A DNA stretch of 12,170 nucleotides from Actinomycetota bacterium (lineage in GTDB: Bacteria; Actinomycetota; Humimicrobiia; Humimicrobiales; Humimicrobiaceae), in contig JAFGMJ010000076.1 of NCBI GenBank assembly GCA_016927635.1, positions 1-12,170 on the forward strand. The letters are read 5' to 3'. Positions 1,300 through 12,071 of the stretch are shown here, piece after piece. Under the pieces are notes generated by a model. That model saw nothing but the letters and a program-made list of their open reading frames with translations. It made no database searches and had not been told where the DNA came from. Made by a program: the position numbers and the translations under genes. Positions within the stretch are counted from its first letter, which is position 1. Every line of letters begins with the position of its first letter.

Positions 1300-2229
1300 T
1301 CAGTGCATATCAACAGAACATGACCCTATGCCATAACGGTAAAAATTAAACTGTACATCCGGATGGTCAGCCAGTAGAGACATTGGTACTGAAGAGTCCT
1401 GTATTTTTTTTGAAATCATAAAAGAGGTCAATCGTATTCCAAATGGATTATCATGATTACCTGCATGCCATATTGAGACTTTACTGGATTTCCAGGTTTC
1501 AGACGGTCCAACAGAAATAGCTTTGGAAGGAATATTTGAAACTACACCGCCTCCCGACGTTCTTGCATTTTGTATTATCGTAAGCGGATGGAGTTCCACA
1601 ATCCTGGTGGTCAGTTTTCTGTATTCTTCGGGTGAAGGCGGGTTATCTTTATGTTCACCTTCTCTTTTTACAGGGTCGTTGAATGCCCAGTGCTTTACTT
1701 CCCCCTGACCTCCCTGCATAATCAAGCAAGAGGCTTCATCATAGGATTTTTTATAATCTTCAATATTGCCCACACTTAAAAAATGCATGTTTTCTTCTGG
1801 CATTTTTAACTCTTTTTTAATCTTGCTAAAACACAGATCCATATCTGCTTTTTTGAAACTTAACGGATCTGTTTCAGGCACTTCCCTACCATTTATGTAC
1901 CATTCATCCATTGCCCAGAAGTGTGCATACTTTAAATCAACCTCAAGGTCATTTACCAGCTGCGCAACAAGAGGGAGCTGCTCTGTAGGCCCTATTGGGC
2001 CACATAAACCACAAGGTTTTAAAGCTGTAGCCTTTTTCCAGCAATATATATATTCCAGAGCCTCAGCCAGGTAAAAAGACTCAAGAGTATCATAAAAATT
2101 CACTGTAAAGCCTGGCCTTGAAAGCTGGATTATGTCTTTTTCTGAAAGTCTTGCAGCAGCGTTCAAAATCTCATTATCCAAAGTCGTGTAATCCCACCAT
2201 CCTGCAGCAATTTTACTTTCGTTTCTCAT
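1300..2229 (-). CDS. NagB-like (glucosamine-6-phosphate isomerase/deaminase fold) protein, divergent paralog 2
   Basis: This 309-residue protein has the NagB/6-phosphogluconolactonase fold. Visible landmarks are a substrate loop of type GPIGPTEQ (77-84), an AMDEWY segment whose D108 matches the catalytic base D72 of E. coli NagB, and [14 protein letters not shown] (173-186), which corresponds to NagB GGVGNDGHIAFNEP. By eye, D141 of NagB is replaced by V178, H143 is kept as H180, and E148 becomes D185. The NagB phosphate ligand R172 appears kept (R223), but I see no counterpart of K208. The first ~40 residues extend beyond classical NagB and resemble the N-terminus of the neighbouring paralog. 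Start ATG 2229-2227 is preceded by AGGAGG at 2237-2242, 7 nt away. The fold assignment is secure, but the reaction is not. It may isomerise or deaminate an amino sugar other than glucosamine-6-phosphate, perhaps together with the paralog at 2305-3219. Confidence 0.82.
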
Positions 2230-2304
2230 CGAATATCCTCCTGTAAAAACATTACTTACTTATTTATTATTGTTTTTATATTTAAATCAATTTAAAAAAT
2301 CTGC

Positions 2305-3219
2305 TTAAAATAATTCCATTTCAACCGGTTGGGCTGTAATTTTGTCTGCAACAAACAAGACATCTTCAGTGGGGTTTTTATGCAGCTGAAGCAGAGTGCC
2401 CGGGCGGTCAAGCGTTGGAGGATGCATCAACGCCAGCCTTAGACTTGCAAGCTGCCATTTTAAAAACCCGTTATCACAATAAATCTCTATTCTTTTTGCT
2501 TCCATAATAGGTTTCATGCCTATAGTTACTGCTTTTGGCGGTAGATCATAACAATTGCCTCCAAGGCTTGAAATGCTGTTTATAACAAAAGTATCAGAAT
2601 TCAAATCAATAATCCTGGTTCTTGATTTTATAAACTGTTCAATTGTCATTTTTGTAAAATAAGTATCAAAAGGTTCATTGAAAGCAATATGTCCGTGATA
2701 ACCAAGCCCTCCAAAACAGGTATCAATGCCGCCAAGTTCCTCTATTTTATTTTCATTATAATCAAGGTCTGCAGGATCAGGAAATATTATCTGCTCTTTT
2801 TGAAGACCCAGTGGTTTATCAAGAAGAGAAAAAAGATTTCTTTCCATAAACCCCCTGAAGCTTACAGGATGATTTTCAGATACCCATCTGCTCTCCCAGT
2901 CCAGGTATTCATCCATGAAAAAAAACCATACTTTTTCGAGATTGATTTTCTCTTTATTCAAAATCTGGGCCAGTATTTTATACTGAGGGGTTGGACCAAC
3001 AGGAAGTATCATCTTTGTGCTGGAGTCTTTATTGTTTTTTTCTATTATTACATCAGCTATTGACCTTGCCATTTCATTATAAAGTGTCTCTGTAGTATCA
3101 ACAACCCTGAATCCTACATTAGCCCATTTTTTTATTTCATCAGATGGCATGGCCATTAACCTTTTAAAGTCTTCATGGCTTATTGTCTGATGCGTTAAAA
3201 TTCCCTTAAAACCATTCAT
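2305..3219 (-). CDS. NagB-like (glucosamine-6-phosphate isomerase/deaminase fold) protein, divergent paralog 1
   Basis: This 304-residue protein is of the glucosamine-6-phosphate deaminase/isomerase family. It shows PVGPTPQY (73-80) where classical NagB has PTGGTP, FMDEYLD with D103 at the position of catalytic base D72, and GGLGYHGHIAFNEP (170-183). In that motif H177 and E182 match NagB H143 and E148, while NagB D141 is replaced by H175. By eye, NagB R172 (phosphate ligand) falls on I216, and K254 may match K208. Classical NagB is about 266 residues; the extra ~37 at the N-terminus align with the paralog at 1300-2229, which supports the start at 3219 despite a weak ribosome-binding site. 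An internal ATG preceded by AAAAGG would give a protein starting at residue 24 and is the main alternative. The gene follows the Gfo/Idh dehydrogenase gene by 57 nt. Substrate and exact reaction are unknown; an amino-sugar or ketose/aldose interconversion is likely. Confidence 0.84.
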   Translation of the reverse strand: MNGFKGILTHQTISHEDFKRLMAMPSDEIKKWANVGFRVVDTTETLYNEMARSIADVIIEKNNKDSSTKMILPVGPTPQYKILAQILNKEKINLEKVWFFFMDEYLDWESRWVSENHPVSFRGFMERNLFSLLDKPLGLQKEQIIFPDPADLDYNENKIEELGGIDTCFGGLGYHGHIAFNEPFDTYFTKMTIEQFIKSRTRIIDLNSDTFVINSISSLGGNCYDLPPKAVTIGMKPIMEAKRIEIYCDNGFLKWQLASLRLALMHPPTLDRPGTLLQLHKNPTEDVLFVADKITAQPVEMELF

Positions 3220-3261: not shown

Positions 3262-3286
3262 AAATTTGTAAATTTTTTACAAATTT
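3262..3286 (-). terminator. AT-rich perfect stem-loop with T-tract over the Gfo/Idh stop codon
   Basis: AAATTTGTAAA (3262-3272) and TTTACAAATTT (3276-3286) are perfect 11-nt inverted repeats with a 3-nt loop. Read on the minus strand, the stem is followed by a run of T ending at 3258, as in an intrinsic terminator. The stem has only one G-C pair, so any termination would be weak. The TAA stop of the upstream gene lies within it, so translating ribosomes would disrupt it. Partial termination or 3'-end protection are both possible. Confidence 0.3.
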
Positions 3287-4293
3287 ATAACGCTATGTGT
3301 TTTTGCTGATTTAATTGCTGCAAGAGCCAGCTCAAGAGAGGACCTGCCATCTTCAAAAGTTGCTATTTTTACCGGTTTATTATTTTCAATACAATCTATA
3401 AAGTAGCTAAGCTCTGCATGGAACGCATCTTCTTTTTCAGCCTCAAGGATTTCAACTGAACCGTCATTTTTGTAAACCTTTATTTCTGCTGCCTGGGACC
3501 TTTCCTCAATATTCTTGCCAGCCCTGAAAATCCACTCTAAAGTCCCGCCCTCACAAAGAATCCTTAAAGCCATTGTAAAAGGAAAAGCACCTTTAAATTC
3601 CCAGCCGCCCTCTACAAGTGCAGATACTTTGTTTTCAAATTCTATTGTTGTGGCTATATGGACAAGACCGCCGCTTTCTTTTTTTAAAGGATCAAAAATC
3701 CCCTGTGCCATTACAATTGATGGCTTGCCGAATAACCATACCAGGTAATCAAGATCGTGTATGTGAAGATCAAGGGCTGCGCCTCCGCCCAGTTTTTCAC
3801 TTGCGCCCCAGTCATTTTGATGCCAGTCTGGTGTAACTGCCAGCCTCTGGCAAAAAGCATGCATTGGCTTTCCCAAAACATTGCTGTCAATATACTCTTT
3901 TACTTTTACATATTCAGGCCAGAATCTGAGCACATGACCGACTATGGCTTTTACTCCACTGTCGTTTACTGCTTTTATCATAACATCAGCATCATCAAGA
4001 GAAAGAGCCAGTGGTTTTTCACAAAAAAGATTCTTTTTTGCAGCTGTTGCTTTAAGAACCATTTCCTTATGGAGGAAAGTCGGTACACATATATCTATAA
4101 GGTCTATTTCTTTATCTTTAAAAATCTCATCTGTATCGTTTAAATATTTTATATTATGTTCTTCTGCAAATTTCATACCCGTCTGTTCAACCTTATCTGT
4201 AACAGCATACATCTGCACATTTTTAATCTGTTTATAAGCGCTTGCATGAGCCTGTGCTATATAACCTGCCCCTATAAATCCGATTTTTACCAT
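3277..4293 (-). CDS. Gfo/Idh/MocA-family NAD(P)-dependent sugar dehydrogenase
   Basis: This 338-residue cytoplasmic oxidoreductase has the usual family length. It has an N-terminal Rossmann domain with GAGYIAQAH (8-16), the conserved CEKPLAL (91-97) containing catalytic K93, and the C-terminal-domain motif GGGAALDLHIHDLDY (169-183), where D175 and H179 are the expected catalytic pair. The family oxidises a ring hydroxyl of sugars, inositols or glycosides with NAD(P)+, often at C3 or C2 of free or glycosidic sugars. The neighbouring TIM-barrel protein is a frequent partner in inositol and 3-keto-sugar pathways, so a keto-sugar intermediate is a reasonable inference here. Start ATG 4293-4291 has GGGGAGG at 4300-4306, 6 nt upstream. 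The gene begins 35 nt after the TIM-barrel gene. Its TAA stop (3277-3279) lies inside an 11-bp inverted repeat. The exact substrate cannot be assigned. Confidence 0.92.
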   Translation of the reverse strand: MVKIGFIGAGYIAQAHASAYKQIKNVQMYAVTDKVEQTGMKFAEEHNIKYLNDTDEIFKDKEIDLIDICVPTFLHKEMVLKATAAKKNLFCEKPLALSLDDADVMIKAVNDSGVKAIVGHVLRFWPEYVKVKEYIDSNVLGKPMHAFCQRLAVTPDWHQNDWGASEKLGGGAALDLHIHDLDYLVWLFGKPSIVMAQGIFDPLKKESGGLVHIATTIEFENKVSALVEGGWEFKGAFPFTMALRILCEGGTLEWIFRAGKNIEERSQAAEIKVYKNDGSVEILEAEKEDAFHAELSYFIDCIENNKPVKIATFEDGRSSLELALAAIKSAKTHSVINL

Positions 4294-4328: not shown

Positions 4329-5132
4329 TTATATCCAGTCATGTTTTTTAAGAAAATCGTAGGATTTTTTTACAGCCTCATTTATTTCCTCCAGGGTGCG
4401 CTCTTTACCGTCAAACTCAATCTCTACGCTGCCCGGGCCATCAAAATTTTTCAATATTTCAAAAATCTTTTCAAAATCCATTACACCATCACCAAGTGCC
4501 GGAAAATCCCAGTCTTTAAACTTACCGCTTCCGTTATCTTTTAAATGTATGTAGCCCATATAAGGAATTGCATTTTGCAGATCGTCCTCTGCTCTTACAT
4601 TTCCATAAAATGTGACATTGCCTGTATCATAGTTTAATTTTACATTGGAATGATTGGCAGCCTTTATTATTTCTGCGCCTATTTTACCTGTATTGCACCA
4701 TTCGCCATGCATTTCAAGACATATTGTGATGCCTTTTTCTTTTGCATAATCTCCAAGCTCCCTTATATCGCTGTAGAATTTCTTTTTATCTTCATCACTT
4801 TTAACTTCACCGGTATCAGTGGTCACATATTTAACGCCTGAAAGTCCTGCAAAATCCAGAAATTTCTTAAAATTTTCCACGCCATTTTCTTTCATCAACC
4901 TTGTGTGGCCCGCAAGACACTGTAGCTGCAGGCCGTGTCCTTTTAAATCCTGCAGTACTTCATCAACTACTTTTTGGCTTACTTCTATTTCAGGTCTAGG
5001 TATATGTTCAAAATAAGAAGGTGCACTTGCAAGTTCAATATATTTAAAACCTGCGTTGGCAATTCCTGCAATTGCTTCTTTTCCGCTGTAGTTTGGATAA
5101 GTGGACGTTACCACACCAATTGTTTTTTTCAT
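4329..5132 (-). CDS. Sugar phosphate isomerase/epimerase-like TIM barrel (AP_endonuc_2 / xylose-isomerase-like)
   Basis: This 267-residue protein has the metal-dependent TIM-barrel pattern shared by hydroxypyruvate isomerase, inosose dehydratase/isomerase and 3-keto-sugar enzymes. It starts with a beta-strand (IGVVTSTYP) and a GIANAGFKYIELA strand-helix unit. Likely metal ligands are E140 (in CLEMHG), D169 (in NYDTGN), H196 (in HLKDNGSG) and E238 or E240 (in VEIEFDG), spaced as in the family. It probably isomerises, epimerises or eliminates water or an aglycone from a keto-sugar made by the adjacent dehydrogenase; this pairing is inference. AAAGGG upstream of ATG 5132-5130 is an acceptable ribosome-binding site. 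It lies 72 nt after the PIG-L gene and 35 nt before the Gfo/Idh gene. The annotation 'phosphate' comes from the family name; nothing here shows that the substrate is phosphorylated. Confidence 0.88.
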   Translation of the reverse strand: MKKTIGVVTSTYPNYSGKEAIAGIANAGFKYIELASAPSYFEHIPRPEIEVSQKVVDEVLQDLKGHGLQLQCLAGHTRLMKENGVENFKKFLDFAGLSGVKYVTTDTGEVKSDEDKKKFYSDIRELGDYAKEKGITICLEMHGEWCNTGKIGAEIIKAANHSNVKLNYDTGNVTFYGNVRAEDDLQNAIPYMGYIHLKDNGSGKFKDWDFPALGDGVMDFEKIFEILKNFDGPGSVEIEFDGKERTLEEINEAVKKSYDFLKKHDWI

Positions 5133-5204: not shown

Positions 5205-5906
5205 CTAGGGTAAAATCCTTTTTGTCAATCCCTGGGGATACATCTGCGCCTGAATAAATGCTTCTGCATAAAAAACTGCAGCCTGGAAACCTCTGTATCT
5301 TGCGACCACCTTAATATATTCTTCAACATCGCTGTCATGCATATCCTTGAGCCAGCCTATCTGAGACTGCATTTTCATCATCATTGAAATTTTTGTGTCA
5401 ATAGTATCAGTTATATCAACAAAATCAGTGGGCGAAAAATTTATGCCCCCCAGAGTGTCCATATAATATAGATAAGGCAATTTGGTTGAGGGCGCATAAT
5501 CTGTTTTAACTAGCCTTAAGCTTGCAAGATACGTGGCTTCAAAAACAAGCCTGCTCACATTTATATGATCCGTCATATAATCCTGAGGATTGTGTGTGAT
5601 TATAAGGTCGGGGTCGGCCTGCCTTATCACATCTACTATTTTCAGTCTGCAGCTTAAATCAAGGACAACTTCACCATCAGGAATACCTGCTGTTAAAGAT
5701 TTTGCTCCGATAATAGATGCAGATTCTATTGCTTCCGCCCTGCGGATTTTTGCAATTTCTTCAGATGTGAGGGTTTTGCTGCCTTTACTGCCATCACAAA
5801 CATGGCATATAAATACCTCATCTCCCCGTTTGCTGTACTTTGTCATTGTTCCTGCACATATTATCTCAATATCATCCGGATGTGCCCCAATTGCAAGTAC
5901 TTTCAT
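5205..5906 (-). CDS. PIG-L family (LmbE-like) zinc N-deacetylase
   Basis: This 233-residue protein has all the hallmarks of the PIG-L/LmbE family. These are GAHPDDIE near the N-terminus (H9, D11, D12: zinc ligands and catalytic base), THNPQDYMTDH (104-114) with H114 as the probable third zinc ligand, and a C-terminal YRGFQAAVFYAEAF block typical of the family. Characterised members remove the acetyl group from N-acetylglucosamine units in small conjugates (for example MshB and BshB in thiol synthesis, or chitin-derived sugars). In this locus, beside a sugar importer and two NagB-like proteins, a catabolic deacetylase of an imported N-acetylamino sugar is more likely than thiol biosynthesis. 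No glycosyltransferase or ligase of such thiol pathways is in the window. AAGGGG lies upstream of ATG 5906-5904. It follows the permease gene by 54 nt. No signal peptide is seen, so it acts in the cytoplasm. Confidence 0.92.
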   Translation of the reverse strand: MKVLAIGAHPDDIEIICAGTMTKYSKRGDEVFICHVCDGSKGSKTLTSEEIAKIRRAEAIESASIIGAKSLTAGIPDGEVVLDLSCRLKIVDVIRQADPDLIITHNPQDYMTDHINVSRLVFEATYLASLRLVKTDYAPSTKLPYLYYMDTLGGINFSPTDFVDITDTIDTKISMMMKMQSQIGWLKDMHDSDVEEYIKVVARYRGFQAAVFYAEAFIQAQMYPQGLTKRILP

Positions 5907-5960: not shown

Positions 5961-6950
5961 TTATCGCCTCATTTTACCAATATTGCTTATAACTGTTGCC
6001 ACAACTATTATTGCACCCAAAACAATGGTCTGGGTAAATGAAGATACTCCAACTATGTTAAGTGCATTGCTCAGGATGCCAAGAAGCAGGACACCAAAAA
6101 ATGCCCCTACAAGGCTGCCTTTTCCGCCTTCGAAAGTGATTCCTCCTATAATAGCAGCCGCAAGAGCCTGGAGTGCAAAATTTGCACCTACATCTGCCTG
6201 GACCATGCCAAGCCTGGATATAAGAATAAGAGAGGTAAACCCTACTATAAGTCCCGATAACGCATATATAGATATTATATGCAAATCAACATTGATTCCT
6301 GAAAGATAGGCTGCAAGAGGATTGCCGCCAATTGCATTTAAACGTCTTCCGTATTTTGTATATTTTCGCAACAAGAATGAAAAAATAAATATCAATAAAA
6401 ATATTATTATGGCTACAGGAACAATGCCGCCTATTTTAGCCTGGCCAAGAAATTGAAATTGCCCTGTTATAGCCTGTGGCCTTCCACCTCCGACTATTAA
6501 AGCGATGCCAAGAAAGACATAATTCATTCCAAGCGTTATTATAAGAGGCGTCACTTTACTTTTAGCTATTATGACACCATTGATAAAACCAAAAACAAGA
6601 CCAAGTAAAAGGACTACAATTACACTTAAAAAGATACTTTTACCTGTTAGAAGCATCCTTGCAAAAATTATTGCCAGAAGTCCTGTCATATTTCCTATTG
6701 AAATATCAAGACCTCCAGATATCATAAGCAGCGCCATGCACATTGTAAGAATGCCAAGTGTTGAAATCTGCTGCATTATGTTCAATAGATTCCTTAAAGT
6801 CAGAAAATTCTGATTCAGAACACTAGCAGCTACCCCTATTACTATAATAACCAGAACCAGATAAACAATCTGATTGTTTAAAAATCTCAGCTTATCAACA
6901 ATAGAAGCCGGACCATTTACCTTTTGTTTGATTTCCTTAGAGTTTGACAC
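5961..6950 (-). CDS. Ribose-type (CUT2) sugar ABC transporter permease
   Basis: This 329-residue integral membrane protein of the BPD_transp_2 type (RbsC/XylH/AraH relatives) has about eight to ten hydrophobic segments. The conserved MALLMISGGLDISIGNMTGL block falls in the first third and GGNPLAAYLSGINV in the middle; the latter is the usual cytoplasmic loop that contacts the ATPase. The late LAAAIIGGITFEGGKGSLVGAFFG stretch is also highly characteristic. It would form the membrane channel as a homodimer. The start codon is GTG (6950-6948), only 2 nt after the ATPase stop. Its Shine-Dalgarno GGGAGGA (6959-6965) lies inside the 3' end of the ATPase gene, so translation is probably coupled to give matched amounts of the two subunits. 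The sugar transported is not evident from sequence. Confidence 0.94.
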   Translation of the reverse strand: MSNSKEIKQKVNGPASIVDKLRFLNNQIVYLVLVIIVIGVAASVLNQNFLTLRNLLNIMQQISTLGILTMCMALLMISGGLDISIGNMTGLLAIIFARMLLTGKSIFLSVIVVLLLGLVFGFINGVIIAKSKVTPLIITLGMNYVFLGIALIVGGGRPQAITGQFQFLGQAKIGGIVPVAIIIFLLIFIFSFLLRKYTKYGRRLNAIGGNPLAAYLSGINVDLHIISIYALSGLIVGFTSLILISRLGMVQADVGANFALQALAAAIIGGITFEGGKGSLVGAFFGVLLLGILSNALNIVGVSSFTQTIVLGAIIVVATVISNIGKMRR

Positions 6951-6952
6951 CT

Positions 6953-8467
6953 TTAATTTCCTCCCATAAAGCCTGATAAAATATTTTCTTCATTTATCTC
7001 ATTTTTTTCGAGTACTTTTGAGATTTCATAATTCCTGATTATAATTATCCTGTCGCTTAATGATATTAGCTCTGGCATTTCAGAAGAAATCATAATAATA
7101 GACTTTCCGCTTGCAGCAAGTTCTGTAAATAACTCATAAACCTCGGTTTTAGCATTTACATCAATACCATGAGTGGGTTCGTCTACAATCAGTATATTAA
7201 CGCCTTTAAAAAGCCATTTTGCAATAACAACTTTCTGCTGGTTGCCTCCACTTAAAAACCTTATTTCCTTATTTAAAGACGGTGTTTTTATATTCAGTTT
7301 ATTGACATATTCATTGCATAGTTTTCTTTCTTTACCCAGACTTAAAAATAATTTGCCTATACTATCAATGCCAACTACAGTAATGTTATGATCTACAGGC
7401 AGACCCATAAAAAGCCCATCTACCTTTTTGCTTTCAGTAAGCAGCGCAATACCGGATTTAACTGCCTGTATTGGGTTAGAAGGGGTTATGTTTTTGCCTT
7501 TGTAAAATATTTTTCCCCCAAGTTTTCTGTAAGCTCCAAAAATCGCCCTTGCTATTTCTGAGCGCCCGGCACCTTTCAGGCCTGCAACACCCAGTATTTC
7601 ACCTTCCCTAACTCTGAAGCTAATCGGCTTTGCGGATTCTTTAATTTTAAGGTCCCGGACCTCAAAAATATAATCCCCGACAGGGCTTTCTTTTTTCTTG
7701 AAAAAAAGATCGACTGGCCGTCCTATCATTTCTTTAGCAAGATCATCCGGCTGGTATTTCTCAAGTTTTTTATCATGTGTATTTATTGCCCTTCCATCTC
7801 TTAGCACTGTTATCCTGTCAGCGACTTCAATTATCTCTTCAAGATCATGGGCAATATATATAACTCCAACTCCTTCTTTGGAAATCCTTTTTACCATCTC
7901 AATTACCAGCCCGATATCCTTGACATTAAAAGCCTGGGTCGGTTCATCAAGAATAAGCACTTTTGGTTTCTGGGCAAGAGCTTTTAAAATCTTTACAAAC
8001 TGCTGGTCGGAAGGGCTTAGTCTTTCATATATCTCGTCCACCTTAAGGGTTATACCCATTTGTTCCGCCAGTGTATTAGCCTGGTCTGTCATTGTCCTGT
8101 AACTTACAAAAAATTTTTTACTATCAATAAGCTCAGTGCCTAAAAATATATTCTCAGCTGCGGAAATGCCCGGTACAAGAATGTCTTCCTGGTATACAGT
8201 CTGTATTCCAAGCCTTCTTGCAACATGAGGCGTGAGATACTTATGAGTCTCTCCACTGATTGTTATTTCTCCTATGTTGGGCTGGAATGCACCTGACAGT
8301 AATTTTATAAATGTCGATTTTCCTGCGCCATTTTCACCAATAAGCCCATGGACCTCACCTTTATACAGGTCAAAGTTGAAATTATTAAGCGCTTTTACAC
8401 CAGGAAATTCTTTTGAAATATTCTTTACATCTAAGATTTTTTCTTTTTCTAATGTTTTGTTTTCCAT
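6953..8467 (-). CDS. Ribose-type (CUT2) sugar ABC transporter, double ATP-binding subunit
   Basis: This 504-residue cytoplasmic ATPase has two ABC domains in tandem, as in RbsA, MglA and XylG. The first domain has Walker A GENGAGKST (44-52), Q-loop Q93, a degenerate signature LSPSDQQ (150-156), Walker B LILDEPT (171-177) and H-loop H207. The second has the degenerate Walker A GLKGAGRSE (296-304), in which the usual lysine is replaced. It also has signature LSGGNQQ (405-411) and Walker B ILIVDEPTHGID (425-436). The same asymmetry is normal for this family. It powers uptake by the permease encoded directly downstream. The start ATG 8467-8465 has only a weak purine-rich site, unlike the strong one of the binding-protein gene. 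A long stem-loop in the preceding spacer may help set lower expression of this subunit. Confidence 0.95.
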   Translation of the reverse strand: MENKTLEKEKILDVKNISKEFPGVKALNNFNFDLYKGEVHGLIGENGAGKSTFIKLLSGAFQPNIGEITISGETHKYLTPHVARRLGIQTVYQEDILVPGISAAENIFLGTELIDSKKFFVSYRTMTDQANTLAEQMGITLKVDEIYERLSPSDQQFVKILKALAQKPKVLILDEPTQAFNVKDIGLVIEMVKRISKEGVGVIYIAHDLEEIIEVADRITVLRDGRAINTHDKKLEKYQPDDLAKEMIGRPVDLFFKKKESPVGDYIFEVRDLKIKESAKPISFRVREGEILGVAGLKGAGRSEIARAIFGAYRKLGGKIFYKGKNITPSNPIQAVKSGIALLTESKKVDGLFMGLPVDHNITVVGIDSIGKLFLSLGKERKLCNEYVNKLNIKTPSLNKEIRFLSGGNQQKVVIAKWLFKGVNILIVDEPTHGIDVNAKTEVYELFTELAASGKSIIMISSEMPELISLSDRIIIIRNYEISKVLEKNEINEENILSGFMGGN

Positions 8468-8510
8468 ATGATGCCCGTATAAAATTTATAATTACACCTG
8501 TATGTTTATA

Positions 8511-8551
8511 ATTTGCGGTCTTATGATTTAATTAAACATAAGACCGCAAAT
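8511..8551 (-). promoter_or_regulatory. Intercistronic 15-bp stem-loop between binding-protein and ATPase genes
   Basis: ATTTGCGGTCTTATG (8511-8525) and its exact reverse complement (8537-8551) enclose an 11-nt AT-rich loop. It sits 46 nt after the binding-protein stop and 43 nt before the ATPase start. There is no clear U-tract after the stem on either strand, so full intrinsic termination is unlikely. Similar stem-loops after periplasmic binding-protein genes protect the upstream mRNA end and leave more binding protein than ATPase or permease; that role is inferred by position. Confidence 0.6.
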
Positions 8552-8557
8552 CTATAA

Positions 8558-8574
8558 AAACTGAAAATCAGTTT
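8558..8574 (-). promoter_or_regulatory. Second small stem-loop in the binding-protein/ATPase spacer
   Basis: AAACTGA (8558-8564) and TCAGTTT (8568-8574) form a 7-bp perfect inverted repeat with a 3-nt loop. On the minus strand the stem ends in a run of five T, resembling a weak terminator placed just before the larger stem-loop. Only two G-C pairs support it, so the signal is modest. Confidence 0.3.
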
Positions 8575-8597
8575 AAATAGTAGAGGCTAAAATAAGA

Positions 8598-9695
8598 TTA
8601 CCATGAATCAAGGCCGCCTACATATTCAAACAAATCTTCAGATGCCGGCCATGGAATATTTTCATCAAGATTATCCGGTGTAATTACCATGTTGGGCAGT
8701 GGTATGAATTTCTCGGGTGGCTCTATTCCCTGTGATACAAAAAGCCACATTGCCTTAAACAACCAGAGACCCTGAAGTGAAACCGGTGATGCTACGGTAG
8801 CATCGATGATTCCCTCATCAAACTGCTTCAGTCCAGTAGGGCCGCCACCGGTTGCAATAATTGGAATGGTGCCCTCAAGACCCGCGTCTTTTAATGCATT
8901 GTAGGCGCCCTGTGCAACAGGTTCATTGTTTGCAAAAATAGCATCAAATTCTTCACCTGATGCTATTACATCAGATACTTCAGGCTGTGCAGTCTGAGTA
9001 TCCCATTGCGTGTCTCTTCTGATGGCAATAGTTGTGCCGCTTGTTGATTCAGCAATTGCTCTTTCCACGCCTCCTTCATACGCTTCTACTATTCCCATTC
9101 CGGGCTGGCCTCTTACATAAAAGATCTTTGCTCCAGGATATTCCGTATCAAGCCATTTAATAGCTTCATAACCGATATTGTCATATTCACAAGCTACATT
9201 GAAGAGATAGTCTCCCTTGAATTCATATCCAATCAGTTCTGAAGTAAGTTTGGTGTTTTCAAAGGCAATAGGAATACCTGCTTCTTTTGCCAGTTCTGCA
9301 TATTGTTCGCCGCTTTCAGGTGTCCAGATAAAAACACCTATTGCATCTACGCCCTTGCTTAGAAGGTCTTCAAAATTAGCAAGCTGTTTTGCGCCATCCC
9401 ATCCAGCGTCAATTACCTGCACCTCTACACCTTTAGATTTTGCAGCAAATTCGAAATTCTCAACGCTGTAACCGTTCCACTCATCTGAAAGTGCAGTTGG
9501 CAAATTACCGAATACAAATGTCTTTGTTGTCTCGGCAGCAGTAGTCTCAGCAGCAGCTGTGGTCTCAGCAGCAGCTGTGGTCTCAGCGGCAGCTGTGGTT
9601 TCAGCAGCTTCTTCCTGCGCGCATCCACTGAATCCCAGGGTTAGAAGTAAAGCTATTACCACGCTCGCCACTATTAATAATAATGGTCTTTTCAT
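8598..9695 (-). CDS. Sugar ABC transporter substrate-binding lipoprotein (Peripla_BP_4 type)
   Basis: This 365-residue protein has a lipoprotein signal peptide: basic KR near the start, a hydrophobic helix (4-22) and FSGC with C25 as the likely lipidated residue (Phe at -3 is less usual than Leu). A low-complexity linker of Ala-Glu-Thr-Thr repeats (about residues 30-58) then tethers the domain to the membrane. The rest is a type I periplasmic-binding fold of the RbsB group: FGNLPTALSDEWNGY, LLSKGVDAIGVF, AGIPIAFENT, DAIFANNEPVAQGAYNAL and PIIATGG are the usual strand-helix landmarks. It captures the sugar outside the membrane and delivers it to the ATPase/permease genes downstream. The start 9695 has a strong AAGGAGG at 9701-9707, 5 nt upstream. 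A probable promoter (9815-9844) lies 120-149 nt upstream of the start, so this gene likely begins the transport operon. The ligand is not identifiable. Confidence 0.94.
   Translation of the reverse strand: MKRPLLLIVASVVIALLLTLGFSGCAQEEAAETTAAAETTAAAETTAAAETTAAETTKTFVFGNLPTALSDEWNGYSVENFEFAAKSKGVEVQVIDAGWDGAKQLANFEDLLSKGVDAIGVFIWTPESGEQYAELAKEAGIPIAFENTKLTSELIGYEFKGDYLFNVACEYDNIGYEAIKWLDTEYPGAKIFYVRGQPGMGIVEAYEGGVERAIAESTSGTTIAIRRDTQWDTQTAQPEVSDVIASGEEFDAIFANNEPVAQGAYNALKDAGLEGTIPIIATGGGPTGLKQFDEGIIDATVASPVSLQGLWLFKAMWLFVSQGIEPPEKFIPLPNMVITPDNLDENIPWPASEDLFEYVGGLDSW
9527..9610 (-). repeat. In-frame 18-bp tandem repeat encoding the lipoprotein linker
   Basis: About three and a half near-identical 18-bp units (for example 9543-9560, 9561-9578, 9579-9596, with a partial unit to 9610) plus a degenerate copy on the left are visible. 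Each encodes a six-residue Ala/Glu/Thr unit of the tether after the lipidated cysteine. Units differ by one or two bases. Such repeats can change in number by slippage without shifting the frame. Confidence 0.85.
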
Positions 9696-9923: not shown

Positions 9924-12071
9924 TTAAAAGCCCAGCTGTTTTTTTACATCGATTGGCAAATCATCGAGAAGTGCTCCATTTGGATTCTTGACGCAATTGT
10001 CAGGGTCAAGATACAGAATAAATGATGCGCCTTCTTTAACTGCAGCGTGAAGGTTCCTTGGACTTTTTGCATCCCCTACAGTTACCACAGGTATACCGGC
10101 AGCTTCAACTTTCGCAAAAGTATCAGCAAGCTCAGTATTTGATCTTGTATAACAGGTAACTATATCGTCAGCCTCAATTGTAGTGATGTTTAAGTTCTTA
10201 TCTATGATTTTTACTTCTTTTTCACCTATATCATATAATGTCGAACTCTCGAATACTTTAACAGGATATTTGTAGGGTTTTGAGTGAAGTGCTTCAGCAT
10301 CGCCCTGAGCCATCCTCTTACGAAGAACATACATATGAATTACTTCAACGCTGGAACCAAATTCTTTCCTGTCTGTTACAACTGTTACATCTTTGCCTGC
10401 TGCGCCAAGAAAAGCCACAAGGTCAGCTGCACCATAATGGTCACCCCAAACTATTACCTTTTCGCCAAGCTTTACGCCTTTACGTCCGCTTCCTTTTGGA
10501 TAAAACTCACAGGTAGCTTTTGGGCAGGAAAATGCTGCTTCCATTGAGGTAATTCTTTCTGTAAGCCCATTAACATCGGGTATGTAGCTTACTGCGCCAG
10601 TTGCATTTAATACTACTTCGAATTTCTTGAGTTCCTCTACATTTGGCACATGTTCCATTAGAACCTCTACACCAAGGTCCTTGATTTCATATCTTAACCA
10701 GTCTGCATACCATTTCATCTTATCCTTATCAGGAACAAGGCAACATCCAAGTATAGCGCCGCCAAGCTCGTTTGACTTTTCAAAAATAGTAGGTTTGTGG
10801 CCGCGCAAAACTGCCCATCTTGCCGCTTCCATACCTGCTGGACCGCCGCCTACAATTGCAATTTTCATAGACCTGGAAGCTTTTGTCCCATCTAATTTAT
10901 AAAAGTCCAGATCACCCATGACCGGATTAATTGCGCATGCAATATCTTTTTTCGCCATAAGCGATTCCTGCCAGCAACCTGTCAGGCATGATATGCACTT
11001 ACGTATTTTATTCTCTTTTCCCAGCAACACTTTTGTAGGCCAGTATGGATCAGCAAGGGCCCCACGGCACATTCCTATCATATCAGCTTTGCCGTCTGCT
11101 ATTATTTTTTCACAGAATTCAGGAGTCCTTAAGGCATGGCTGATAATGACAGGTATTTTCACAAGTGGTTTTACAGCCTCAGCAGAGTATAGGGTCCAGC
11201 CTTCCTGGTACTGCATGGGATCGAAACCGGCGCCGGGAGTTTCCTGTATGCACTGGCTTAAATCAAGAGCATCGGCTCCGCCTTCTTCAAGCGCTACAGA
11301 AATTCTTTTGCTTTCCTCAACATCTATTCCTTCGGGAACCCATTCATTAGCTGAAAAACGAACTATAACAGGAAAATCATTTCCGCATTTGTTTTTTATT
11401 TCCTTTATTACAGCCAGAGGAAAACGCATGCGGTTCTCAAAGTTACCGCCAAAACGGTCTATCCTTCGGTTAAGATAGGGACTTAAAAATGCTGACATCA
11501 AATAGCCGTGTGCTGCGTGAAGACAAACTGCATCAAATCCGGCTGCCTGGCATCTCCAGGCTGCAAGAGACCAGAGCTCTACCTGATCAAGTATCTGAGC
11601 TGTGGTAAGAGCCTTTATTTCTTTTCCTTTTTCCTCTGCATTTGCAAATACTATCTCATGGCCTGCTGACCATGGAAGTTTAACAACCTGGTCATTTGTA
11701 GAATAATAACTGCCCTTTGGCATTGGGCACTGCCTGCCGGGATGCTGTATCTGTGGTATTGCCAGGGCGCCATATTTCTGTATGGATTTTGCAAGTCTTG
11801 CCATTGCCGGTATCATATTGTCTTCGTCTATTATAAGACCAGTGACAGTAACACGTCCCGTCTTTGAATCTGGAGTGCAGCCTCCGATATTAATCATGCT
11901 GTAACCGCCTTTGGCAATTTCTGAATATACTGCTATATCAAGCTCACTTACAGACCCGTCTGCATTTGAGCAGCTTATGGCAGTAGGTTCAAAATTTATT
12001 CTATTCTTAGCCACAACAGAACCTATGCGAATTGGCTTAAATAGATTAGGATATTTTGTTTCTGTTGACAT
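9924..12071 (-). CDS. Old Yellow Enzyme / 2,4-dienoyl-CoA reductase-type FMN, 4Fe-4S, FAD oxidoreductase
   Basis: This 715-residue flavoenzyme is built like 2,4-dienoyl-CoA reductase, 2-enoate reductase and trimethylamine dehydrogenase. The N-terminal FMN TIM barrel (about 1-345) has QIQHPGRQ (107-114), HAAHGY (185-190; H185/H188 substrate pair and Y190 proton donor) and NRRIDRFGGNFENR (201-214). C359, C362, C366 and C379 form the 4Fe-4S motif. A FAD/NAD-type domain follows, with IVGGGPAGMEAA (406-417) and an ELGG motif (435-438). The second nucleotide-binding loop is unusual: WGDHYG (542-547) replaces the normal GGGxxG, which recalls the degenerate site in amine dehydrogenases. It probably reduces an activated C=C bond or oxidises a small substrate in the cytoplasm; the substrate is unknown. 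Start ATG 12071 has AAAGGAG at 12079-12085, 7 nt upstream. It is separated from the transport operon by 228 nt with its own promoter, so a shared pathway is plausible but unproved. Confidence 0.9.
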   Translation of the reverse strand: MSTETKYPNLFKPIRIGSVVAKNRINFEPTAISCSNADGSVSELDIAVYSEIAKGGYSMINIGGCTPDSKTGRVTVTGLIIDEDNMIPAMARLAKSIQKYGALAIPQIQHPGRQCPMPKGSYYSTNDQVVKLPWSAGHEIVFANAEEKGKEIKALTTAQILDQVELWSLAAWRCQAAGFDAVCLHAAHGYLMSAFLSPYLNRRIDRFGGNFENRMRFPLAVIKEIKNKCGNDFPVIVRFSANEWVPEGIDVEESKRISVALEEGGADALDLSQCIQETPGAGFDPMQYQEGWTLYSAEAVKPLVKIPVIISHALRTPEFCEKIIADGKADMIGMCRGALADPYWPTKVLLGKENKIRKCISCLTGCWQESLMAKKDIACAINPVMGDLDFYKLDGTKASRSMKIAIVGGGPAGMEAARWAVLRGHKPTIFEKSNELGGAILGCCLVPDKDKMKWYADWLRYEIKDLGVEVLMEHVPNVEELKKFEVVLNATGAVSYIPDVNGLTERITSMEAAFSCPKATCEFYPKGSGRKGVKLGEKVIVWGDHYGAADLVAFLGAAGKDVTVVTDRKEFGSSVEVIHMYVLRKRMAQGDAEALHSKPYKYPVKVFESSTLYDIGEKEVKIIDKNLNITTIEADDIVTCYTRSNTELADTFAKVEAAGIPVVTVGDAKSPRNLHAAVKEGASFILYLDPDNCVKNPNGALLDDLPIDVKKQLGF

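Follow-up and report, generated by a model that had tools for sequence, protein, structure and literature searches.

What do two neighbouring genes do when both encode proteins resembling the glucosamine-6-phosphate (GlcN6P) deaminase NagB and both depart from it at the active site? We asked this of a locus from an Actinomycetota bacterium (assembly GCA_016927635.1, referred to as G000), in which the window, the whole stretch of DNA analysed (12,170 nucleotides), is one entire contig (JAFGMJ010000076.1; G000:C135). Its minus strand carries two intact open reading frames (ORFs) in tandem, 75 bp apart, at 1300-2229 (NagB_A, 309 amino acids, aa) and 2305-3219 (NagB_B, 304 aa). A sequence-only reading had proposed that they act on a different, perhaps unphosphorylated sugar, possibly as a heteromer or in two successive steps. 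This interpretation proved half right and the sequence feature behind it real. We think that NagB_A and NagB_B work like NagB but on another substrate. The losses in their phosphate site, together with their neighbourhood to genes of the PIG-L family, suggest that they probably process an amino sugar without phosphate.

Neither protein is recovered by the models of known NagB types. NagB_A and NagB_B score 26.3 and 102.3 bits against TIGR00502 (cut-off 236.9), and 15.8 and 79.3 bits against NF002557, the model of the PRK02122 fusion (cut-off 384); at their length they are not fusions. NagB_B falls narrowly under the gathering threshold of PF01182 (Glucosamine_iso; 26.3 bits, threshold 27), and many of its close relatives, as well as the database's own NagB_B record, are assigned to that family, of which it appears to be a borderline member. 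NagB_A gave no Pfam match at E 0.001 and no phmmer match to PDB sequences at E 1. As these searches failed to place it, a fold comparison was used, and both proteins are predicted to adopt the NagB fold. The two are homologous to each other far above chance (25% identity, E 2e-20). G000 also encodes a separate canonical NagB on contig C77 (L039:43-819; 274.8 bits against TIGR00502), and the pair is therefore not its substitute. In the same genome six places match NagB_B, including NagB_B itself and NagB_A, and a second copy of NagB_A (65%) lies on contig C33 with a Gfo/Idh/MocA (Gfo) oxidoreductase gene two genes upstream.

We mapped the residues of both proteins on E. coli NagB (from NC_000913.3) and estimated conservation from the 119 best-listed relatives of each, out of at least 8000 matches for NagB_A and 1156 for NagB_B. 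The base Asp (D72 in E. coli; D103 in NagB_B, D108 in NagB_A) and the active-site His (H143; H177 and H180) are retained, as had been claimed, and are invariant in all 119 relatives of each protein. The mapping also bears out the substitutions read from the sequence: D141 is replaced by His in NagB_B (H175) and by Val in NagB_A (V178), and E148 is Glu in the former (E182) and Asp in the latter (D185). The GGT phosphate loop reads G-P-T in both proteins because two residues are missing. R172 corresponds to I216 in NagB_B and is retained in NagB_A as R223. K208, said to be unmatched in one of the two, aligns with Q256 in NagB_B, while the column in NagB_A is non-Lys (I265 or T depending on the alignment, which is ambiguous there, with R266 close by). 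Relative to E. coli NagB, both proteins carry an insertion ahead of the R158 region.

These states are highly conserved. Among the NagB_A relatives D108, K179, H180, D185, R209, H259 and R266 are invariant (119/119) and R223 is found in 118. The same states are kept in all 78 NagB_A proteins of at least 290 aa from the named NagB_A loci (the best 80 of at least 571 relatives, at 64-76% identity and from many phyla), with R266 in 77. In NagB_B relatives, D103, H175, H177 and E182 are invariant (119/119), Q256 is found in 117 (two gaps), and residue 216 is aliphatic in 113 (L 76, I 24, V 13). Position 254 varies (N 71, R 18, K 12 of 119).

Which of these changes mark a departure from NagB becomes apparent from the phylogeny. 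In a tree of 47 rows, a branch with 100/100 support parts canonical NagB and the NagB-PIG-L fusions from a sister clade of NagB_A, NagB_B and their kin, where NagB_A (100/100), NagB_B (99/94) and several unnamed subfamilies are found. Residues were compared in hand-picked rows from both sides: 11 canonical-side rows (NagB, fusions and kin; one tree row, L167, is omitted) and 29 sister-clade rows. The phosphate Lys (K208) and a full-length T-G-x-[TS] loop are both present in 11/11 canonical-side rows, and neither is present in NagB_A or NagB_B. Every sister-clade row has a shorter loop, lacking two residues or, in one case, three, and the Lys is lost in 26 of the 29. The 14 other sister-clade paralogues (G000 C18 and C169; G035; G010; L131-L133 and L155-L161) all share the shortened loop with NagB_A and NagB_B, and eight have Trp-Gln at the K208 position. 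They nevertheless form subfamilies of their own, whose members mostly differ from NagB_A and NagB_B at the D141 position and mostly also in their gene neighbours; L156 and L157 share the His at D141 with NagB_B. On the canonical side the D141 position is occupied by D, N, S or T, while only three rows retain R172; the canonical NagB of G000 has a Glu at this site. Changes at D141 and R172 are thus poor markers, since both vary within canonical-side rows, and R172 in particular is an unsafe marker of the phosphate site, being Glu in a protein above the TIGR00502 cut-off. We dropped D141 as the key change. Taken as signs of a changed substrate, the altered residues noted earlier hold up for K208 and the loop, not for D141 and R172. 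In a simulation study of S. mutans NagB, the phosphate contacts given are Lys194 (93.0%), Thr38 (83.7%) and Ser37 (PMC8369159).

The second line of evidence, which adds to the sequence-only reading, is the association with PIG-L deacetylases. The window encodes one, a probable de-N-acetylase of the PIG-L/LmbE family (5205-5906, minus strand, 233 aa; PF02585; closest NCBIfam model BshB1, under cut-off). We counted 79 of the 80 named NagB_A loci: in 51 a PIG-L gene adjoins NagB_A on the same strand, and in 59 one occurs anywhere in the locus sequence. The locus left uncounted, L072, has an intact NagB_A gene and, close after it, a PIG-L match (G086:C1). The background is about one PIG-L match per megabase (Mb; 217 matches in 50 genomes, ~220 Mb), from which we estimate the frequency of chance adjacency at well below 1%. 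In seven of the 79 loci, all from Planctomycetota or a subgroup of it, a PfkB-family gene (cluster c13) directly follows NagB_A, an arrangement that would be consistent with a free ketose as product.

NagB_B keeps the same company. We searched 61 genomes, G000 and 60 relatives, for close NagB_A (at least 64% identity) and close NagB_B (at least 60%). Twelve have a close NagB_B, and 11 of these loci were compared (the analysed locus, L024 and L139-L147; G026, where the gene is split over contigs, is uncounted). NagB_B and PIG-L lie in one cluster in 10 of the 11, while L146 begins at NagB_B. In eight, a triosephosphate isomerase (TIM) barrel gene and a Gfo gene stand between the two. Downstream, a URO-D-like gene is present in all seven loci that continue past NagB_B without NagB_A, and a BadF-type gene accompanies it in five (one lacks it, one ends earlier). 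The best-matching model for the BadF-type protein is NagK, at 96.5 bits against a cut-off of 370; Pfam was run on one BadF-type and two URO-D-like representatives, NCBIfam on one of each. At the analysed locus and in L024, NagB_A occupies the place of the URO-D-like and usual NagK-like genes. Locus L139 illustrates the other arrangement, a URO-D/MtaA-type protein in a sugar operon, with the NagK-like gene at 6642-7577 and the URO-D-like gene at 7630-8772, both after NagB_B. In G000, 16 places match a URO-D-like protein.

At the analysed locus the genes follow one another on the minus strand in the order Old Yellow Enzyme (OYE)-like flavoenzyme, sugar-binding protein, ATP-binding cassette (ABC) transporter ATPase, permease, PIG-L, TIM barrel, Gfo, NagB_B, NagB_A, a small ferredoxin-like protein and an EamA transporter. 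Gaps of 2 to 130 bases from the sugar-binding protein to NagB_A fit a single operon. The importer comprises the sugar-binding protein (8598-9695, 365 aa; PF13407), whose N-terminus looks lipoprotein-like by eye, the ATPase (6953-8467, 504 aa; two PF00005 stretches) and the sugar permease (5961-6950, 329 aa; PF02653). Between PIG-L and NagB_B lie the xylose-isomerase-like TIM barrel (4329-5132, 267 aa; PF01261) and the Gfo oxidoreductase (3277-4293, 338 aa; closest NCBIfam models IolG and UDP-N-acetylglucosamine (UDP-GlcNAc) 3-dehydrogenase, both under cut-off). Family scans of the window found no sugar-kinase-like gene among the genes of the operon.

We therefore put forward, tentatively and with a little less than even confidence, that this operon may catabolise an imported amino sugar lacking a 6-phosphate, through deacetylation by PIG-L and isomerising deamination by the NagB-like proteins, possibly after steps by Gfo and the TIM barrel. 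An acetylated amino sugar, or a close derivative, would be imported without phosphate. Gfo and the TIM barrel could adjust it by oxidation, isomerisation or epimerisation, and PIG-L would take off the acetyl group. The NagB-like His (H177 in NagB_B, H180 in NagB_A) would then open the ring, and the NagB-like Asp (D103 or D108) would move the C2 proton, releasing ammonia and leaving a ketose. Overall this would be the NagB reaction on a sugar lacking the 6-phosphate. NagB_A would be a second deaminase from another subfamily, with a different and perhaps anionic specificity.

Several observations weigh against this proposal. Its weakest point is the placement of the Gfo and TIM-barrel steps. Lys is found at the K208 column in three of the 29 sister-clade rows (L132, L160 and L161). 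No PIG-L gene is present in the available sequence of 20 of the 79 NagB_A loci, where some contigs are short and others are not. In more distant members of the sister clade, PIG-L adjoins the NagB-like gene at only 2 of the 12 loci compared, and the partnership therefore does not extend throughout the clade. Three NagB_A loci from related genomes (L026, L027 and L028) carry genes of the M20 and M24 peptidase families and not PIG-L, a setting that hints at another substrate class; NagB_A also adjoins a putative cyclase gene in L027 and L028. A NagK-like gene stands two genes downstream of NagB_B in five of the nine other NagB_B loci (one lacks it, three end earlier), which makes a phosphorylated intermediate possible. 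Finally, NagB_A may hold an anionic group, given the retained R223, the conserved R266 and the conserved K179, which it has gained, and its substrate could be anionic. The suggestion of an unphosphorylated substrate thus stands as far as the shortened loop, the lost Lys, the ABC importer and the lack of a kinase-like gene carry it, and is weakened by the basic residues of NagB_A. As judged from the residues, it is firmer for NagB_B than for NagB_A.

The main rival, unlikely on present evidence yet better placed than the others, is that the NagB-like proteins isomerise, epimerise or eliminate at C2 of an amino sugar that Gfo has oxidised, to a 3-keto form or in another way, in place of plainly deaminating a hexosamine. 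We scanned 193 of the 217 further operon mates of NagB_A (at least 120 aa, PIG-L excluded, up to four genes either way; the 24 unscanned are of ~500 aa or longer). Gfo/Idh/MocA was the commonest family (21), followed by AP_endonuc_2 (16), and both also occur at the analysed locus. Gfo adjoins NagB_B there and in 7 of the 10 other NagB_B loci, and the Asp that acts at C2 in NagB is retained. The operon's Gfo comes near the UDP-GlcNAc 3-dehydrogenase model (150.5 bits, cut-off 450), but the inositol dehydrogenase model IolG outscores the 3-dehydrogenases. Moreover, the main Gfo cluster is found in just 24 of 84 NagB_A loci (two of them repeat contigs counted under another id), and in L024 and L145 PIG-L lies directly beside NagB_B with no Gfo between. 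Substrates of the T. maritima inositol pathway and mycothiol-like glycosides were also considered, and no supporting evidence was found.

A further explanation, which we regard as rather improbable, is that these are ordinary deaminases of 6-phospho amino sugars holding the phosphate by other residues, which in NagB_A would be R223, R266 and K179. It draws on the R172 equivalent and two further invariant basic residues of NagB_A, on the NagK-like gene of the NagB_B loci, and on the absence of R172 from the canonical NagB of G000 as well. Against it stand the consistent split of Lys and loop between the two sides of the tree and the state of NagB_B, which lacks R172 and K208 alike and shows no conserved Lys in their place, position 254 being variable. 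The genes of the window include no sugar kinase, and no relative of the NagK-like protein was found in G000 (77% complete), though the protein is matched in 29 of the 61 genomes (E 1e-20). At the same threshold it was not found in G000, G018, G001 or G004, whose genomes are 73 to 92% complete; G001 and G004 are further NagB_A-bearing genomes from the same two genera as G000 and G018. Five other NagB_A-bearing genomes have both NagB_A and the BadF-type protein, with NagB_A and NagB_B on different contigs.

The tandem arrangement had raised the idea of one hetero-oligomer or of two fixed successive steps, which we now consider very improbable. The genes adjoin in G000 and also in G018, which belongs to another genus (locus L024), but in no more than these two of the 61 genomes, although a close NagB_A is present in 9 (one a 102-residue fragment), a close NagB_B in 12 and both in 7. 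In a second collection, where the genomes of 50 of the 80 named NagB_A loci were searched, a single close NagB_B was found (75%), and its position coincides with that of G029 in the first set; matches in the remaining 49 reach at most 41% identity. None of the nine NagB_B loci other than the analysed one and L024 contains NagB_A, two of them ending at NagB_B. An obligate pair or heteromer was thus rejected as the main reading, as the two proteins do not co-occur consistently: the check by family tree gave distinct clades, without the constant co-occurrence. We consider it just as improbable that either protein, or both, is a lactonase like 6-phosphogluconolactonase or another hydrolase that has the NagB fold but does not deaminate. 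6-Phosphogluconolactonases have this fold too, and as matches they come after the GlcN6P deaminases.

The remaining minus-strand genes of the window flank the operon. The OYE-like flavoenzyme gene (9924-12071; nearest NCBIfam models mycofactocin OYE 2, BaiCD and bilirubin reductase, all under cut-off) lies 228 bases upstream of the gene for the sugar-binding protein, which by eye shows Ala-Glu-Thr-Thr repeats after its N-terminus. At the other end, a ferredoxin-like ORF (999-1247, 82 aa) overlaps the start of an ORF assigned to the EamA transporter family (40-1029) by 31 bases. In G004 (L033), a NagB_A fragment is directly followed by a relative of the EamA transporter.

The preferred reading, deamination of an amino sugar without phosphate, bears on annotation. 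Sources that name the listed NagB_A relatives label them as glucosamine-6-phosphate deaminase or isomerase. If NagB_A-type proteins do not use 6-phosphates, a large group is mislabelled, and reconstructions of amino sugar utilisation would be in error for Planctomycetes, Spirochaetes, Lentisphaerae, Chloroflexi and uncultured Actinomycetota. The partnership with PIG-L offers a concrete, testable substrate class.

How do these proteins compare with known systems? Among the papers seen in searches of one open-access library (PMC), none deals with the NagB_A/NagB_B pair, the family or a NagB and PIG-L module. Canonical NagB (TIGR00502; PDB 2bkv, 1dea and 5hj5) shares the fold, the base Asp and the active-site His with both proteins, and the Glu at the E148 position with NagB_B, while NagB_A has Asp; both score far under its cut-off, with a loop two residues shorter and K208 lost. 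PRK02122 proteins join NagB and a PIG-L-like domain in one chain, whereas NagB_A and NagB_B are free-standing. The NF002557 cut-off is passed in 6 of 25 genomes; at G109:C44 a single gene region has matches to PF02585 as well as to positions 367-420 of NF002557. We rejected these fusions as close kin: the NagB half of the three in the tree groups with canonical NagB and retains the phosphate Lys and loop, and NagB_A and NagB_B fall outside that clade.

The N-acetylglucosamine pathway of NagA and NagB consists of deacetylation followed by isomerising deamination, both on 6-phosphates. The same two reactions would take place in the analysed operon. In E. coli nagB has the deacetylase gene nagA as its neighbour; the partner of NagB_A and NagB_B is PIG-L, not NagA, and the analysed operon combines it with an ABC importer, Gfo and a TIM barrel and has no sugar kinase gene. 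Slightly less confidently than for this operon, we propose that the NagB sister family, large and widespread, could have dispensed with the 6-phosphate and formed, together with free-standing PIG-L, a kinase-free counterpart of NagA and NagB, in which free N-acetylated (or 3-keto) amino sugars would be deacetylated and deaminated before any phosphorylation.
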